A DNA stretch of 51,795 nucleotides from Chloroflexota bacterium (lineage in GTDB: Bacteria; Chloroflexota; UBA5177). The notes beneath the pieces are model-generated. The model searched no databases, was not told the DNA's origin, and saw nothing but the letters and a program-made list of their open reading frames with translations. Positions 44,152-51,795 of this stretch are shown one piece after another (position 1 is the stretch's first letter; every line of letters begins with the position of its first letter). Both the position numbers and the translations under genes were made by a program. The DNA lies in contig JAICWV010000006.1 of assembly GCA_025966365.1 (NCBI GenBank), forward strand, positions 1-51,795. The letters run 5' to 3'.

Positions 44152-44805
44152 TTACGACTGCGCGGCAGGATCGCGCGGTACCACCCGGTCACTGACGGCG
44201 TCGGCCGATCCGTTTGGGCGATCTCCATCTGTCTGCTGCCAGACGTGATACAGACGTTGCACCGCCGTGACATGGGTCAGGATGGCCAGGATAATCAGCG
44301 CCGCCACTGTGGTCTGAACGTTGATCAGTAGGCCGACCCCGAGAATAATGACCCGCTCCGGCCTGGGGGCGATTCCCACCTTCGCCTGCAAGCCGAGTCC
44401 CTCGGCGCGCGCCCGCGCGTACGAGATCATGATGGAGCCGACGGCGACGACGTAGGCCAGCACCACCTCGGCCGTCTGACCGCGGACGGTGAAGACGTAA
44501 ATCAGGGCCGCCAGAATCGCCGCTTCGGAATAGCGGTCGAGCAGCGAGTCCAGGAAGGCGCCAAAGGAGCTCTGCCGGCGCATGACCCGGGCCAGAGCGC
44601 CGTCGAGCATGTCGAAGACCGCCGAGACGAAGAGAAACACGCCCCCGATGGATAGGTGGCCGGAGGCGATCACGCCCGCCGTGACGACGTTCAGGAGAAA
44701 GCCGAGAACGGTGGCCGCGTTGGGCGACATGCCCACAGCCGCCAGCGGAGACACCGCTGCCTCGACCGCGCGTCTAACCCTGCTTTGAAACTGCTCGGGA
44801 AACAT
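44152..44805 (-). CDS. CDP-alcohol phosphatidyltransferase, likely phosphatidylinositol phosphate synthase
   Basis: A 217-residue membrane enzyme with six helices. The family motif FDMLDGALARVMRRQSSFGAFLDSLLDR carries the D-x2-D-G-x2-A-R-x8-G-x3-D-x3-D residues. RARAEGLGL and KVGIAPRPERVI resemble the lipid and inositol-phosphate site of actinobacterial PgsA1. It joins CDP-diacylglycerol to an alcohol phosphate. Gene context (ino1, acyltransferases, PimA-like) argues for inositol-1-phosphate as acceptor; glycerol-3-phosphate is the alternative. The ATG directly follows the stop of the upstream gene. Confidence 0.88.
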   Translation of the reverse strand: MFPEQFQSRVRRAVEAAVSPLAAVGMSPNAATVLGFLLNVVTAGVIASGHLSIGGVFLFVSAVFDMLDGALARVMRRQSSFGAFLDSLLDRYSEAAILAALIYVFTVRGQTAEVVLAYVVAVGSIMISYARARAEGLGLQAKVGIAPRPERVIILGVGLLINVQTTVAALIILAILTHVTAVQRLYHVWQQTDGDRPNGSADAVSDRVVPRDPAAQS

Positions 44806-45969
44806 TTAGCCCAGAGGCTCCCAGGCCACCGCGGGCGACGGCGACGGCAGCGGCCGGCTGCCGGTCCGCACATACAGGTCCAGCACCTGCTCCGCGATAC
44901 GTCCCCAGGAGTACTGAGCGGCGGTCTCGATGCCGGCCGCGCCCATCGTTCGGGCGAGCTGTGGATCCTGCAGGATGCGGCAGACGGCGTTTGCCACGGC
45001 GGCGGCGTTTCTGGGGGGAACCAGCAGGCCCTCCTGGCCGTCCGTGACCACGTCGCGGTAGCCGACGATCTCGGTTGCGACGACTGGCCGTCCGGCTGCC
45101 ATCGCTTCCAGCAGCACGATACCGAAACTTTCCCCCTCTACCGCGGGAGCACAGAAAACATGAGCACTTCGCAGATAGCGGGCCTTGTCTTCCTCTGACA
45201 CATAACCGACGATCGAGATATCCCGCATGTTGTGGCGCTCGATATAGGCGCGATACGGGGACTCCTGCCAGTCGCCCGCACCCACGATGATGAAGCGGGC
45301 GTCGGGAAAAGCATTTTTGATCTCGGGATAGGCGCGGATCAAGTAGCCCACCCCCTTCCGTTTCTCGGGGCGGCCGACGAAGAGGATATTGGGGCGGCCG
45401 TCTTCCAGCTCGGGAAACGGCTGAACGACGGACGGGTTGAGCCGGTCCACTTCCACCCCATTGGGGATGATCCGGTAGGGCGCCATGAAGTACTGGCGGA
45501 CGAACCGCTTGGCGGCCCGAGAAACGGCGATACGAGCGTCGAGATTGGCGAAGACGCGCCGCAGAATAGGCCGTCCATAGAAGTACCCGTAGTAGGAGCC
45601 GCGGTAGGCGTGGAAGGTTCCGACGTTCACGGCGGTGGAATAGCGCAAGACGGTAGGGGGGAGAAACGGCATCAGCGGCTCGTGCGCGTGCACGATGTCG
45701 AACTGCTCGTTCTGAAGGATTTCACGAACGCGGTGCGACAGCCGAAAGGAGAGGGTGATCCGCGCGATCGACCCGTTGGCCGGAATGCGGCGGACGCCAC
45801 CGACGCGATACATATTGTCCACTTCGCGTTCGATGTTGCGGTTGGAGGACGGCGCAAGGATGCGGACGTCGTGTCCGACCGAGGTGAATTCGTCGTAGAG
45901 ATGCTGGACATGGCTGGTAACGCCGCCCGGGTAGGGATAGTCATAGGGGGATACGAGCGCGATTTTCAC
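44806..45969 (-). CDS. GT4 glycosyltransferase, PimA-like phosphatidylinositol mannosyltransferase
   Basis: 387 residues, GT-B fold. SPYDYPYPGGVTSHVQHL, the NGSIAR arginine, HAHEPLMPFL, TFHAYRGSYYG, NGVEVDRLNP, GRPEKRKGVGYLI and GESFGIVLLEAMAAGRPVV follow mycobacterial PimA, including the His of TFH, the Arg/Lys pair and the Glu of ESFG that hold GDP-mannose. PimA adds the first mannose to phosphatidylinositol at the inner membrane face. The start is a GTG after GAGGAG. Another GT4 lipid mannosyltransferase is possible. Confidence 0.85.
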   Translation of the reverse strand: MKIALVSPYDYPYPGGVTSHVQHLYDEFTSVGHDVRILAPSSNRNIEREVDNMYRVGGVRRIPANGSIARITLSFRLSHRVREILQNEQFDIVHAHEPLMPFLPPTVLRYSTAVNVGTFHAYRGSYYGYFYGRPILRRVFANLDARIAVSRAAKRFVRQYFMAPYRIIPNGVEVDRLNPSVVQPFPELEDGRPNILFVGRPEKRKGVGYLIRAYPEIKNAFPDARFIIVGAGDWQESPYRAYIERHNMRDISIVGYVSEEDKARYLRSAHVFCAPAVEGESFGIVLLEAMAAGRPVVATEIVGYRDVVTDGQEGLLVPPRNAAAVANAVCRILQDPQLARTMGAAGIETAAQYSWGRIAEQVLDLYVRTGSRPLPSPSPAVAWEPLG

Positions 45970-45994: not shown

Positions 45995-46918
45995 TCAGAC
46001 CGTCGCCTTTTCCGTCTGCATCATGGTAGCAATGGATTTGCTGCCGTCCCGCCAGGGATTGTCAAACATCAGCCACTGGTCGGGGAAGTGGCCGATCACC
46101 TCTTCGAAGACGCGCGCCAGCCGCTGGGCGTTCTCTGGGTCGTCGGCATCGGCGTTGCCGGTCCGCTGCATCGGAATCGGCGCCGATATGATGCCGCTGT
46201 AACCGAACCCGTTGCGCACGCCGCAGGCTACCAGTACGGGCGCGCTGGTACGTCGTGCGAGCGATACCGGGCCATTGGGGAGAGCGGCGGTGTGACCGAA
46301 CATCTCAACCTCGACACGGCGTCCGGCAGCAGTCTTATCTCCGGCGATAGCCACCATCTCGTGGGCGTGCAACGCGCGTAGAAGTGCGCGGGGTGCCTGC
46401 TCGACCGGTACGGCGTTGAGTCCCTGGCTTCGTCGCTCGCGAGTGAGAAAGTCGTAGAGGGCAGGAGGTCGCATGTGCTCCACTGGAACGGTGAGGATGT
46501 AGCCGCGAAGCGCGATGAGCTGGCCGACCAGGTCGTAATTCCCGAGATGCAATGTCACCAGGATGAGCCCCTTGCCCTCCTGGTAGGCGGCAATGAGCCG
46601 CTCCCAGCCACCCGGCTCGACCTCCACCATTCGCTCGATGTCGCTGAGCTGGAGCCGTCCAATTCGCAGGGTGTCGATCCAGTTCCGGGCATCGTTCTGG
46701 AAGGCGGCCCGCGCTGCGCGTCTGACCTTCGGCGAGCCGGCCGGGACACCAAGGACGATGGAGAGATTGCGAGTGATCTGCCGCCGGGGGATCGGAAACA
46801 GGAGATAGGCGCACCACCCGGTCACGGAAGCGAGGCCATACGCCAGGCGGAGCGGGAGCAGCGGAAGGAGGAGCCCAGCCAGGCGCAGCGCCAGGTAGAG
46901 GGCGATGTTTCCGATCAT
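45995..46918 (-). CDS. LpxL/HtrB/PatA-family lipid acyltransferase (second copy)
   Basis: 307 residues, N-terminal membrane helix (LALRLAGLLLPLLPLRLAYGLA) and the acyltransferase block with catalytic LVTLHLGNYDLVGQLI (H-x4-D). VPVEHMRPPALYDFLTRERR and AIAGDKTAAGRRVEVEMFGHTAALPNGPVSLARRT are family features. Its ATG overlaps the stop of the first acyltransferase gene by ATGA. The two proteins differ in sequence, so they probably acylate different positions, as needed for acylated phosphatidylinositol mannosides. Confidence 0.85.
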   Translation of the reverse strand: MIGNIALYLALRLAGLLLPLLPLRLAYGLASVTGWCAYLLFPIPRRQITRNLSIVLGVPAGSPKVRRAARAAFQNDARNWIDTLRIGRLQLSDIERMVEVEPGGWERLIAAYQEGKGLILVTLHLGNYDLVGQLIALRGYILTVPVEHMRPPALYDFLTRERRSQGLNAVPVEQAPRALLRALHAHEMVAIAGDKTAAGRRVEVEMFGHTAALPNGPVSLARRTSAPVLVACGVRNGFGYSGIISAPIPMQRTGNADADDPENAQRLARVFEEVIGHFPDQWLMFDNPWRDGSKSIATMMQTEKATV

Positions 46919-47832
46919 CCTCTCGCCGGGTCCCCGGTGGCAGCTTCTCGCCCGGCGAGGAAAGGCGCCGACTCGTTGGGCCACATGGGCCGGAACATGT
47001 ACCACTGATCGGGCCGGTCGCGAACCACGGCCTGCATGGTATCCACCAGACGCTGCATGATGGTCTGAGTATCTCGATCCCGGTCTCCCGTGTCCACCGG
47101 CTGGATCGCCGGAAAGATCAGACTCTCGAACGAGCGGTCGGGCTGGCGAAACATGTAGACCGGCACGATGGTGGCGCCGGTCTTGAGCGCCAGTACCGCG
47201 GGCCCGGCCGGTACCGCTGTCTCGCGGCCGAAAAAGCGAACGGCCACTCCGCGGGCCAGATCGAGCGGTCGGTCGAACAGGACGCAAAGGGTGCCTCCGC
47301 GCTTCAAGACCCGGAGCATCTCGCGGACATTATTGGCGGGAACCAGCTCGATCCCCTTCTCGCGACGCTTTCGCTGGATCAGGCGGTCCAGGTAGTCGGG
47401 GTGAAAGGTGTCGTAGACCGCGTGGAAGTCGGTGAAGTCGGCAAGCCGCAGACCGCCAACTTCGATGGTGCCGAAGTGAGCGCTGGCCAGGACGATACCC
47501 TTGCCCCTGTCCAGAGCCTCCTGCAGGTGCTCCACTCCGGTGATCTTCATCGAGCGAATGACTTCGTCCTGCGACGACATGGTGGGCAGCGCAAGAAATT
47601 CGACCAGGTACTTGCAGTAGTTCCGCATCGACTTCATCGCCAACCGCTTGACCTCCGGGTCATCCGGAGGGCGCCCCAGCACCGTTGCCATGTTGCTCAA
47701 CAGGATGCGCCGCTTGGCTGGCCACGCCCAGTAGACCAGGTCGCCCACGGCGGTACCGGCAAGGTAGCGCCATGAGCGGGGAATGATCCTGGACAGAAGG
47801 GCTCCGGCCTGAATCACCAGATAAAGCGCCAT
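46915..47832 (-). CDS. LpxL/HtrB/PatA-family lipid acyltransferase (first copy)
   Basis: 305 residues: a membrane-binding N-terminus (LVIQAGALLSRIIPRSWRYLA), catalytic VLASAHFGTIEVGGLRL (H-x4-E), KRGGTLCVLFDRPLDLARGVAVRFFGRETAVPAGPAVLALKTGATIVPVYMFR. In mycobacteria PatA acylates the mannose of PIM and its gene neighbours pgsA1 and pimA; the same company is seen here. Starts 5 nt after the ino1 stop. Activity on another glycolipid is possible. Confidence 0.87.
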   Translation of the reverse strand: MALYLVIQAGALLSRIIPRSWRYLAGTAVGDLVYWAWPAKRRILLSNMATVLGRPPDDPEVKRLAMKSMRNYCKYLVEFLALPTMSSQDEVIRSMKITGVEHLQEALDRGKGIVLASAHFGTIEVGGLRLADFTDFHAVYDTFHPDYLDRLIQRKRREKGIELVPANNVREMLRVLKRGGTLCVLFDRPLDLARGVAVRFFGRETAVPAGPAVLALKTGATIVPVYMFRQPDRSFESLIFPAIQPVDTGDRDRDTQTIMQRLVDTMQAVVRDRPDQWYMFRPMWPNESAPFLAGREAATGDPARG

Positions 47833-47837
47833 CGTGC

Positions 47838-48947
47838 CTAGCGTCCGGCGCTCGCGCCCACCGGCGTATCGGCTCGGGCCGTGGCCTTGATAAACGCCTC
47901 GGTCATCTCGCGTGCCTGCTCATCCTTGTACTGAATGGGAGGAGACTTCATGAAGTAGGCCGCGGGTCCTTCCAGCGCCCCGGCGATGTTGTGGTCGAGG
48001 CCGAGCTTGGCGCAACGAACGGCGTCGATGACGACGCCGGCCGAGTTCGGTGAGTCCCAGACCTCGAGCTTCAGTTCCACGTTAAGCGGAACGTCGCCAA
48101 ACGACCGTCCCTCCATACGCACATAGGCCCACTTCCGGTCGGTCAGCCAGGCGACGTAGTCGCTGGGGCCGATGTGGACGTTCTCGGCGCCGATCTCGTA
48201 GTCGAGCTGCGACGTCACGGCGTTCGTTTTGGAGATCTTCTTTGACTCCAGCCGCTCGCGCTCCAGCATGTTCATGAAGTCGGTATTGCCGCCCACGTTG
48301 AGCTGGCTGGTTCGCTCCATGCGCACGCCGCGCTCGCGGAACAGATTGGTCAGGACTCGGTGAACGATGGTGGCGCCCACCTGCGACTTGATGTCGTCGC
48401 CGACAATGGGAAGCCCTGCTTGCTCGAAGCGGCCGCGCCAGTAGTCTTCGCGCGCGATGAAGACCGGGATGCAGTTGACGAAGGCGCAACCGGCCTGAAG
48501 GATTTGCTCGACGTACCACTTGGTGGCTTCCTCACTGCCCACCGGCAGGTAGCTAACCACCACATCGGTCTTGGTGTCTTTGAGAATCTGGGCCACGTTG
48601 GCCGTCGGACCTGGGGCCTTCTCGATCACCTGCGACAGGTACTTGCCGAGCCCATCGTGGGTCATGCCTCGCTCGACGGTCACGCCCAGGTGCGGGACGT
48701 CGGAGAACGTGTAGGTGTTGTTCTGACCGGAGAAGATGGCCTCCGACAGGTCCTTCCCGACTTTCTCCGCATCGACGTCGAACGCGCAGCTGAACTCGAT
48801 GTCCCGGATGTGATAGCCGCCCAGATTGACGTGCATCAGCCCGGGAACAAAATCCCCGTCCAGCGCGTCCTGGTAATACTGCACGCCCTGCACCAGTGAG
48901 GACGCGCAATTGCCGACCCCGATGATTCCTACTCGTACCTTGGCCAA
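47838..48947 (-). CDS. ino1: Inositol-3-phosphate synthase
   Basis: 369 residues, mycobacterial type. [19 protein letters not shown] (NAD), [60 protein letters not shown] with the active-site lysine, [29 protein letters not shown] and GPSDYVAWL are intact. It turns glucose-6-phosphate into inositol-3-phosphate. The start is TTG, preceded by AAAGGAG, two bases after the arsR stop, so arsR and ino1 are coupled. First biosynthetic gene of the operon. Confidence 0.95.
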
Positions 48948-48949
48948 AC

Positions 48950-49282
48950 CTATGCTCCTTTCGTCATCGCGTGTTTATTACCGGCACGGGGTATCCCCGA
49001 CGGCGACTCGTTCACTCCGAACATTTCTCCGATCTGCTCCTGGTATTCGGCAAGTGCGGGACGGTTGAGGGAGCACCACACCTGGCGACCCTGCCGCCGG
49101 GTGGTGACGATCCCGGCTTTCTTCAAAATGCGCAGGTGCCATGAGATGAGCGGCTGGCTCAAGCGCAGCTCCTCACCGAGCTGAGTCACAGTCATGCTGT
49201 CTCGCTCTGCCAGCAGCTCGACCACGCGCAGGCGCTTCCGATCCGCCAGGGCCCGGAAGTACGTCGAGAGATCCTGCACCAT
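48950..49282 (-). CDS. ArsR-family winged-helix regulator
   Basis: 110 residues: [22 protein letters not shown], the recognition helix [25 protein letters not shown], and a wing [14 protein letters not shown]. The metal-binding cysteine pair of classical ArsR is missing; one Cys stands in the wing. It is the first gene of the inositol-lipid run and is probably its autorepressor. The ATG at 49282 is placed after TTGGGGCG; a GTG at 49294 is an alternative. Effector unknown. Confidence 0.85.
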
Positions 49283-49294
49283 CGCCCCAAACAC

Positions 49295-49326
49295 ATAAGC
49301 AAGACTTTAATTAAATATCCGCTTAT
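49295..49326 (-). promoter_or_regulatory. Concentric dyad, probable ArsR operator
   Basis: ATAAGC (49295-49300) and GCTTAT (49321-49326) flank TTTAATTAAA (49306-49315), and both share the centre 49310.5. It lies between the -10 box and the arsR start, where bound repressor would stop transcription. Confidence 0.6.
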
Positions 49327-49355
49327 ACATTATTGGTTCTGCGCCCCTGCGTCAA
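49327..49355 (-). promoter_or_regulatory. Promoter of arsR-ino1
   Basis: TTGACG (49350-49355), 17-nt spacer, TAATGT (49327-49332) on the minus strand. Confidence 0.6.
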
Positions 49356-49386
49356 GGTCCAGCCGAAGGTGCATCCGAACTACGCC

Positions 49387-49415
49387 TTGACAAGTACCTC
49401 CGGGCCACCTATGCT
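49387..49415 (+). promoter_or_regulatory. Sigma70 promoter of the secreted protein gene
   Basis: Perfect TTGACA (49387-49392), 17-nt spacer, TATGCT (49410-49415), divergent from the arsR promoter. The leader to 49711 would be near 290 nt; no convincing gene lies in it. Confidence 0.6.
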
Positions 49416-49710
49416 AACCGCGCGTCCTGTGGAGAATGCGATGACAGCGAAGCAGTGGCAGGGGAAAGGCGCATTATCAGCGTGGAAAAATGTGCCCGAA
49501 TCTCGAGCTAGAAGTGGTCCGCTGACCGGTTCCATCCGCGAGGAGACGAGACGACCGGAACCGCCGTAAACCCGAGTTGCTCAACACACGGAGAGGAGGT
49601 AGACCACAGCGTATGACGCATCCGGCGTGCCTTGGACAGACCGGTGGCAGCACGCCGCGCCTCAGATTCCACGACTCACGTTCATAAAGCCATGCAAGAG
49701 GAGATTTCGT

Positions 49711-51405
49711 ATGACCAAAGTCGCGCGGATTCTTGTCCCCCTGATAGTCGCCCTGCTAGCTGTGCCTGGCGCTAGCATTGCTCTGGCGAGTCCAGCCGCG
49801 TTCACCACCGACAAGACCGGGGCGCGGGTCAACCAGAACATCTATCAGACGTCCACCGACGTCTACGTTAACGGTGGACCGCAAAACGCCGGCTCTGCTG
49901 GATTCCCGGACGGGTCGTACTACTTCCAGGTCACCGACCCCAGCGGTGCGTACTTGCTTTCCACTGACGGCGCAGCCTGTCGGCAAGTGCAGGTCGCTCA
50001 CGGGGTTGTCACGGGAGCCATCGGTCCCTGTCCACACGCGCTCGGTGTTTACAACCCGGCGAACGGTTCTACGTCGGTTCAACTGTATCCGTTCTCCGCG
50101 AGTCAGGACGCGGGTAACATGTACAAGGTCTGGCTCATTCCTGAGAACTCGTCGACATCTGTCTCAGCAACCGATCCGCGAGTCCTTTCCTTCAGTCAGG
50201 CGAGCACCAGGACCGACAACTTCAAGGTCCTCACCCCGACGCCGGTTCCGACCGGGTCGTGCCAGCCGTCAAGTTCTCTGTCAGTCCTCGTCAACGGCAA
50301 GAACGTGACTGCATACGTTCCCAAGGGCAGCTGGGTGGACCCAGGGATAACGCCCGCCACGGGCATCTCTGTCGTCAACGTCGAAGGCGCAAGCATCATA
50401 CCCACCTTCATCAGCACCCCTGAAGTCGTAAACTCTGCCGCTTCCAATCCCTTTACCGGTCAGACGGTAGCCGTGGCGAATGATGGCGACGTCTATCTAT
50501 TGAACGGGACCACAATCACGAATACGTTGACGAGCGGCGCCAGCGGCCAGATCGGGTTCTCAGGCGGGTCCTGCACCAACTGTGGCGTCGCTATGGACGC
50601 TCTCCACAACAAAGCCGTCATCAGCATGAGTGTGGGAGGTCGGCCCGGGTTCCAGGTGCTGAACCTGAATTCCTCTCCCATCTTCGAGTCGCCCTTCGCC
50701 TCTCCAGCAGGGCATGTCTCCGAGGACGCGCTCATCGATCCTTTGCGCAACTTGCTGCTGTCCCCCAGTGAGTTCAACAACTACGAGCTGGTGAATCTAG
50801 AGACGAGTATGAGCCCTAGCTTTTACGAGAACCAGGTAGCTGATCCGAGCGGCGACTTGGACTCTGCGGGAGAGGACTGCAGCACCGGCATCGCGCTGGC
50901 CCCTGCCGAATTCGCAGGTCCGTCGCAGGTGTACATCGCCGATCTTTCCCAGGCCGAATTCACTCCCGGCTCGCCGGGGAGCTGGACCGCGCCCTCCCAG
51001 ATGCAAACACTTTCCGAGTCTGACCTGTCCGCTGGTGCAAGCGGAGTTGCCGTCGCGCAGGGGACGCACCTGGGGGTCGTCACCGGTGAGTTTGGCGGAG
51101 ACGCGCTGACCGCGATCGCCCTGCCTTCCTCATCTGGGATCGGTACTCCCGCCATTACTGATTGGGTTACCTGCAGCATCTCGGGTTTTTCAAACGGCTT
51201 CGATCCGCACACGGTGACCGCGTATCAGAGCCCAAATAGTGGTGACGCCACTGCATTGCTTGCCAATGCCAGCGCGACTTCGCTGGAGTCGATCGACCTG
51301 GCGAAGATGCTGAACACCTCTGTGGTGCCCCGCACGCCAGGTGGACACGGGTGCGCTTCCGGGGCGCTTCCACCGTCCGTAGTCAGTTCCATTAGCGTGC
51401 CGTAG
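49711..51405 (+). CDS. Large secreted hypothetical protein, 564 residues
   Basis: Signal peptide (MTKVARILVPLIVALLAVPG, then cleavage near ALA-SP), an N-terminal beta domain with SYYFQVTDPSGAYLLSTDGAACRQV, a TPTPVPTG linker, then a repetitive part (VAVANDGDVYLLNG, VAMDALHNKAVISMSVGGR, EDALIDPLRNLLLSPSE) that reads like a beta-propeller with several blades. About eight cysteines. No LPxTG signal or anchor. AGAGGAG before the ATG. Codon use is slightly less GC-biased than its neighbours. Function unknown. Confidence 0.75.
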   Translation: MTKVARILVPLIVALLAVPGASIALASPAAFTTDKTGARVNQNIYQTSTDVYVNGGPQNAGSAGFPDGSYYFQVTDPSGAYLLSTDGAACRQVQVAHGVVTGAIGPCPHALGVYNPANGSTSVQLYPFSASQDAGNMYKVWLIPENSSTSVSATDPRVLSFSQASTRTDNFKVLTPTPVPTGSCQPSSSLSVLVNGKNVTAYVPKGSWVDPGITPATGISVVNVEGASIIPTFISTPEVVNSAASNPFTGQTVAVANDGDVYLLNGTTITNTLTSGASGQIGFSGGSCTNCGVAMDALHNKAVISMSVGGRPGFQVLNLNSSPIFESPFASPAGHVSEDALIDPLRNLLLSPSEFNNYELVNLETSMSPSFYENQVADPSGDLDSAGEDCSTGIALAPAEFAGPSQVYIADLSQAEFTPGSPGSWTAPSQMQTLSESDLSAGASGVAVAQGTHLGVVTGEFGGDALTAIALPSSSGIGTPAITDWVTCSISGFSNGFDPHTVTAYQSPNSGDATALLANASATSLESIDLAKMLNTSVVPRTPGGHGCASGALPPSVVSSISVP

Positions 51406-51421
51406 TCCGGAGGTGCTGGTT

Positions 51422-51456
51422 GGAGCGGTGGGTCGCACGCGCCGGCCCACCGCTCC
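51422..51456 (+). terminator. Hairpin after the secreted protein gene
   Basis: GGAGCGGTGGG (51422-51432) and its exact complement (51446-51456) with a 13-nt loop, 16 nt after the stop; no T-run. Nothing else is seen up to 51585. Confidence 0.65.
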
Positions 51457-51585
51457 TCCCCGTCAACCCGCGGGAATGATAGCTCTGGCGGAGCCACGAC
51501 TCAGCAGCTGTGGGATCTGGCGAGAGACGTTGTCCAGCATCATCTGCCGTCTGGAGGCGGGGCACATGATGAGATCGGAATATCT

Positions 51586-51795
51586 CTAACGCGCGGCGGC
51601 GGTGGGGGCCGAGGTGGATCGGCTGCGTCTACTTTCGGTTACCAGGTGGTAGCGACGGGCAAACAGAGCATAGAGCTGGCGAGCGTCGGTGACGCCCGCG
51701 AATGCCGGAGCCTGCTCCCGGGGGGCGGCCATGAAGGGATACATCTGGACGCCCCCCAGGCCGCCGTGCGATCCGGCATGGTCTTCAAAGCTCAC
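51586..51795 (-). CDS. C-terminal end of an AlkP-superfamily phosphodiesterase-like protein (partial)
   Basis: About 69 residues that continue beyond the right edge. SFEDHAGSHGGLGGVQMYPFM is very like the conserved C-terminal motif of bacterial nucleotide-pyrophosphatase-like AlkP proteins (FEELxGSHGGLGGxQxxPF). The tail ends in a basic, alanine-rich stretch. The GTG at the window edge is unlikely to be the true start. Confidence 0.6.
   Translation of the reverse strand: MSFEDHAGSHGGLGGVQMYPFMAAPREQAPAFAGVTDARQLYALFARRYHLVTESRRSRSTSAPTAAAR

Follow-up and report, generated by a model that had tools for sequence, protein, structure and literature searches.

Two abutting palindromes before an arsR–ino1 operon in Chloroflexota as a putative operator of the adjacent ArsR-family protein

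The operon and its promoter

The window, that is the whole 51,795-nucleotide stretch analysed, carries on its minus strand a gene for an ArsR-like winged-helix regulator (48950–49282), 110 residues long from the ATG at 49282; an in-frame GTG at 49294 is also a possible start. The gene for inositol-3-phosphate synthase, ino1 (47838–48947, minus strand), begins with TTG 2 bp after the arsR stop. Its product matches PF01658 (1.8e-37; 128 bits against a cutoff of 27) and scores 552 bits with TIGR03450, under the equivalog cutoff of 638. Four more minus-strand genes follow. Two encode PIM-type acyltransferases: the first (46915–47832) belongs to PF03279 and has phosphatidylinositol mannoside acyltransferase as its best NCBIfam match, below cutoff; the second (45995–46918), whose start overlaps the stop of the preceding gene, has NF005919 as its best match, also below cutoff. 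A GT4 glycosyltransferase (44806–45969; PF13692, PF00534, PF13439) and a CDP-alcohol phosphatidyltransferase of PIP-synthase type (44152–44805; PF01066) complete the set. The latter scores 172 bits with NF040950 (cutoff 180) and 136 bits with NF045883 (cutoff 170), its nearest families being the inositol-phosphate-using PIP synthases. The genes are separated by a few bases or overlap, except for about 25 bp before the glycosyltransferase. Read from family membership, the genes form a plausible pathway from glucose-6-phosphate to a phosphatidylinositol that is glycosylated and acylated, and the inositol-lipid link drawn in an earlier sequence-only reading of this DNA is borne out by the gene content of the operon.

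Upstream of arsR, on the same strand, a probable −35 element TTGACG (49350–49355) is followed after 17 bp by a probable −10 element TAATGT (49327–49332), an arrangement shared by the relatives. TAATGT is a weak −10 (three of six consensus positions) and AATAAT, two bases upstream, is an alternative. A simple consensus promoter scan did not pick up the arsR promoter, including its −10, and the distance between −35 and operator across genomes was used instead: 21 of 42 promoters have a TTGACA-like hexamer that starts 20–31 bp (nearly all 27–31 bp) before the first site, where shuffling predicts 1.6. Site A, ATAAGCGGATATTTAA (49311–49326, minus strand), is a 16-bp palindrome of 6-4-6 form that abuts the −10, with the −35 lying 29 bp upstream of it. 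Site B, TTAAAGTCTTGCTTAT (49295–49310, minus strand), also 16 bp, abuts site A in turn. The order is thus −35, −10, site A, which places the sites over the start point. On the plus strand, TTGACA-N17-TATGCT (49387–49415) is a good promoter-like site for the divergent gene of a predicted secreted protein (49627–51405).

A paired site recurrent in the phylum

The sequence-only reading had described an outer 6-bp and an inner 5-bp inverted repeat with a common centre between the −10 and the start codon, and all of these are present. The outer arms ATAAGC (49295–49300) and GCTTAT (49321–49326) are centred at 49310/49311, as is the inner palindrome TTTAATTAAA (49306–49315), the whole element being flanked by the −10 region and the arsR ATG. 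A concentric dyad of this form occurs once in the 51.8-kb window, where whole-window shuffles average 0.2; 2000 local dinucleotide shuffles produced none. Four relatives, from the same family and order, keep the outer half-sites, spaced one base less than in the window, and have TTTATTCAAT, TTTATTGAAT, TTTAATAAAA and TTTATTAAAG in place of TTTAATTAAA. This comparison suggests that the concentric geometry is in part incidental. What is conserved is a palindrome of 16 bp, ATAARS-N4-SYTTAT, which the window has twice, back to back and 16 bp apart. The outer repeat then arises because it is the strong outer half of each of two abutting operators, and the inner palindrome because the weaker inner halves of both meet at the centre. 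An arsR–ino1 operator is upheld, as two abutting 16-bp sites and not as a single concentric operator with an inner 5-bp arm.

Inspection of the upstream regions of relatives had shown the hexamers ATAAAG and CTTTAT with 4-bp spacing. The pattern ATAARS-N4-SYTTAT was initially drawn from the same promoters, hence unbiased expectation maximisation (EM) was applied to promoters of other Chloroflexota families, outside that of the window; it returned ATAAAg-N4-cTTTAT with a log-likelihood of 320 (shuffled sequence: 34). Scored with that matrix, sites A and B come first and second (17.8 and 17.3 bits) of 51,780 positions in the window, the third-best position reaching 10.2 bits. Neither window site fits the pattern perfectly, the mismatches numbering 2 and 1, which counts against the reading as an operator. 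The expectation, set beforehand, that the element be conserved before ino1 in related genomes holds in 32 of 44 arsR–ino1 promoters when up to one mismatch is allowed, with 0.11 expected by shuffling. Among ino1 genes lacking a neighbouring ArsR gene, 4 of 96 have a site within 400 bp. Many other promoters also have two sites, mostly 15–16 bp apart and otherwise about 28–32 or 56–57 bp. A chance palindrome might be suspected of an AT-rich promoter within a GC-rich genome, yet the shuffles, the leave-family-out ranking and the cross-genome controls contradict it, and we regard it as next to impossible.

In the 19 genomes with an exact site in the arsR–ino1 promoter, all 21 exact sites genome-wide lie in that promoter. 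Because the two counts of exact sites agree, the regulator looks like one that has a single target in each genome. For the genome that holds the window, a wider regulon was considered and rejected, since sites with up to one mismatch number 19 against 12 for a reversed control. A second exact copy of site B, on contig C122, was likewise dismissed as a second target: it lies at a contig end, on an alternative contig with the same promoter. Set beside window positions 49340–51795, that contig end carries the arsR promoter and start unchanged and differs on the upstream side; the phosphodiesterase-like gene of the window's end is present and little is left of the divergent gene 49627–51405, which would fit an assembly from two strains or alleles.

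The regulator, its partners and proposed repression

The window protein is, in fold and in sequence alike, an unremarkable member of the ArsR family. It matches PF01022 (E 1.4e-14) and NCBIfam NF033788 (88.3 bits, cutoff 55), and its AlphaFold2 model (pLDDT 87) retrieves ArsR structures with Foldseek; the best PDB relatives by sequence and fold include SmtB, CzrA, HlyU, SqrR, NolR and SrnR. It thus combines a winged-helix domain with a symmetric putative operator in its own promoter, as expected for the family. In an alignment of 46 members R17, V32, H49, L53, G65 and R66 are invariant, and S42, Q43, P44, S47, W48 and L50 of the recognition helix are at least 90% conserved; the helix motif SQPLxSWHL is near-invariant in ArsR relatives that precede ino1. 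Strict conservation is confined to the DNA-binding part of the winged helix, and helix 5 varies.

Ino1 is present in 93 of 101 relatives. An ArsR relative, usually the genome's best ArsR match, lies upstream of ino1 on the same strand and within about 1 kb in 48 of these 93 Chloroflexota genomes; about half thus have no neighbouring ArsR. Where ino1 is missing (8 genomes), the best ArsR match is no more than paralog-like (E 1e-5 to 1e-11). The regulator and its site are also seen together away from ino1. Genomes of a Ktedonobacteraceae-type family (f18; loci L058, L060 and L061) have a 21.9-bit site before the ArsR ortholog and a PIM-type acyltransferase gene after it, and ino1 lies elsewhere in the genome without a site. 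In genome G029 (locus L059) the gene that the ortholog heads is a GT4 glycosyltransferase, behind a 22.2-bit site, and in several families a CDP-alcohol phosphatidyltransferase gene stands between arsR and ino1. Because the ortholog heads acyltransferase and GT4 genes behind a site, and a phosphatidyltransferase can intervene before ino1, the regulator appears to track lipid genes of the types found in the window's operon and not ino1 alone.

Taken together, the dyad is very probably the operator of the adjacent ArsR protein, at which two dimers would exclude RNA polymerase and repress their own inositol-lipid operon. Two ArsR dimers would sit on the two abutting 16-bp palindromes of ATAARS-N4-SYTTAT type, covering the stretch from the end of the −10 across the start point. 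Bound there, they would keep RNA polymerase out and so autorepress arsR, ino1, the two PIM-type acyltransferases, the GT4 glycosyltransferase and the PIP synthase, closing the route from glucose-6-phosphate to glycosylated phosphatidylinositol. Two-dimer binding and repression by occlusion are the natural reading of the geometry, as sites downstream of the −10 and over the start point imply autorepression by blocking polymerase.

In Corynebacterium the LacI-family protein IpsA activates ino1 and is released by myo-inositol, and the C. glutamicum ino1 promoter has two palindromic IpsA sites (PMC3899939). That precedent might suggest that ArsR too is an activator. In the same study, however, sites upstream of −35 activate and sites that overlap −35/−10 repress (PMC3899939); the sites described here are downstream of −10 and not upstream of −35, and activation is accordingly a very remote prospect. 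The two systems are alike in controlling ino1 and inositol-derived lipids through palindromic sites (IpsA in Corynebacterium and Mycobacterium; PMC3899939). They differ in that IpsA is an ino1 activator of an unrelated protein family, with a multi-target regulon, in Actinomycetota; profile searches of the window regulator gave no match to a LacI-family domain, which sets it apart from IpsA. Small winged-helix autorepressors of the ArsR/SmtB type (SmtB, CzrA, HlyU, NolR, SqrR, SrnR) likewise have a symmetric operator over their own promoter; the window protein departs from them in its inositol-lipid target, its own operator ATAARS-N4-SYTTAT, its own SQPLxSWHL recognition helix and its want of a conserved metal or thiol ligand set. 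Rv0047c of M. tuberculosis, which we take to be of PadR type, is comparable as a regulator gene sharing an operon with ino1, and differs in family and phylum. Its partner there is Rv0046c (PMC3899939). Searches of the literature, which was covered in part, turned up no account of an ArsR protein controlling ino1, and nothing relevant on ArsR and inositol in Chloroflexi.

What is known of how bacteria control inositol-lipid synthesis comes mainly from Actinomycetota, where a LacI-type activator is at work. Chloroflexota would add a dedicated, phylum-wide putative repressor of another family, with a precisely predicted operator. The protein would also define a clean non-metal ArsR subfamily, for which the ligand search narrows to a handful of compounds.

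Possible signals and the ArsR–Ino1 single frame

The best PDB relatives and a cysteine at position 70 could point to a classical ArsR/SmtB metal or redox sensor that happens to control ino1. The sequence-only reading had noted that the metal-cysteine pair is absent, and this is correct: C70 is the sole cysteine, found in 35 of 46 orthologs and replaced by Tyr or Ile in the remainder, and no metal-ligand set (CxC or α3 Cys pair, α3N, α5 His/Asp/Glu) is conserved in the 46-member alignment. We consider such a sensor improbable.

A compound of the pathway (inositol phosphate, inositol or a lipid) might instead release or tighten ArsR and so give feedback control. In the form proposed by the sequence-only reading, inositol-3-phosphate, myo-inositol or an inositol lipid would bind ArsR and alter its affinity. 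The operon content, the tie of the regulator to inositol-lipid genes even away from ino1, the response of IpsA to myo-inositol (PMC3899939) and the ArsR–Ino1 fusion described below all speak for it. The alignment, however, revealed no conserved polar ligand pocket or ligand residues among the 46 orthologs, conservation being concentrated in the DNA-binding part with helix 5 variable; it also counts against a ligand that ArsR proteins are small, and that for some of them none is known. We hold feedback by a ligand as a tentative guess, a little short of an even chance. The same features, a small protein with no conserved sensor residues and apparently one target per genome, would suit a ligand-free autorepressor that, like SdpR, does no more than keep the operon at a low and steady output. 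SdpR-type proteins are ArsR-like autorepressors with no known metal, but the window protein scores 58.1 bits with NF033789 against a cutoff of 100 and has another gene context, and conservation throughout the phylum suggests a reason to switch. This homeostat is rather unlikely, though clearly more credible than a metal sensor.

Physical linkage of regulator and enzyme points to a shared function. In one Ktedonobacteria family (f11) a single frame, uninterrupted by any stop, runs through ArsR and Ino1 in all five genomes with a found ino1, from three genera (loci L018, L023, L010, L193 and L015). Ahead of the Ino1 part there is still a possible ribosome-binding site and start, so that free Ino1 may be made alongside the fusion. 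In a codon test the linker looked mildly coding in genus g31 and not at all in g15, with weak statistics; the case for a fusion therefore rests on the absence of a stop and not on linker conservation. The frame shares its logic with trigger enzymes and with fusions of BzdR type, described as a DNA-binding domain joined to an enzyme-like domain (PMC3602430); it differs in that the partner is a full inositol-3-phosphate synthase with a possible internal start and ribosome-binding site. It is conceivable, if unlikely, that Ino1 or its immediate product is the signal and that ArsR partners the enzyme it controls. The fused protein would then be an enzyme-repressor that tells its promoter of its own catalytic state, and the translationally coupled pair of the window would do likewise in two pieces. 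Such a natural fusion offers a direct handle on regulator–enzyme coupling.

A fusion was also considered in another Ktedonobacteria family (f37), where the frame lengths are equal; inspection shows separate frames. Within f11, L018 and L023 have a linker motif CxxCAHVPPY in common. In the fused proteins L018, L023, L015 and L010 the recognition helix reads SFHL and not SWHL. Their sites lean towards ATAAAT and away from ATAARS, so that protein and operator may covary.
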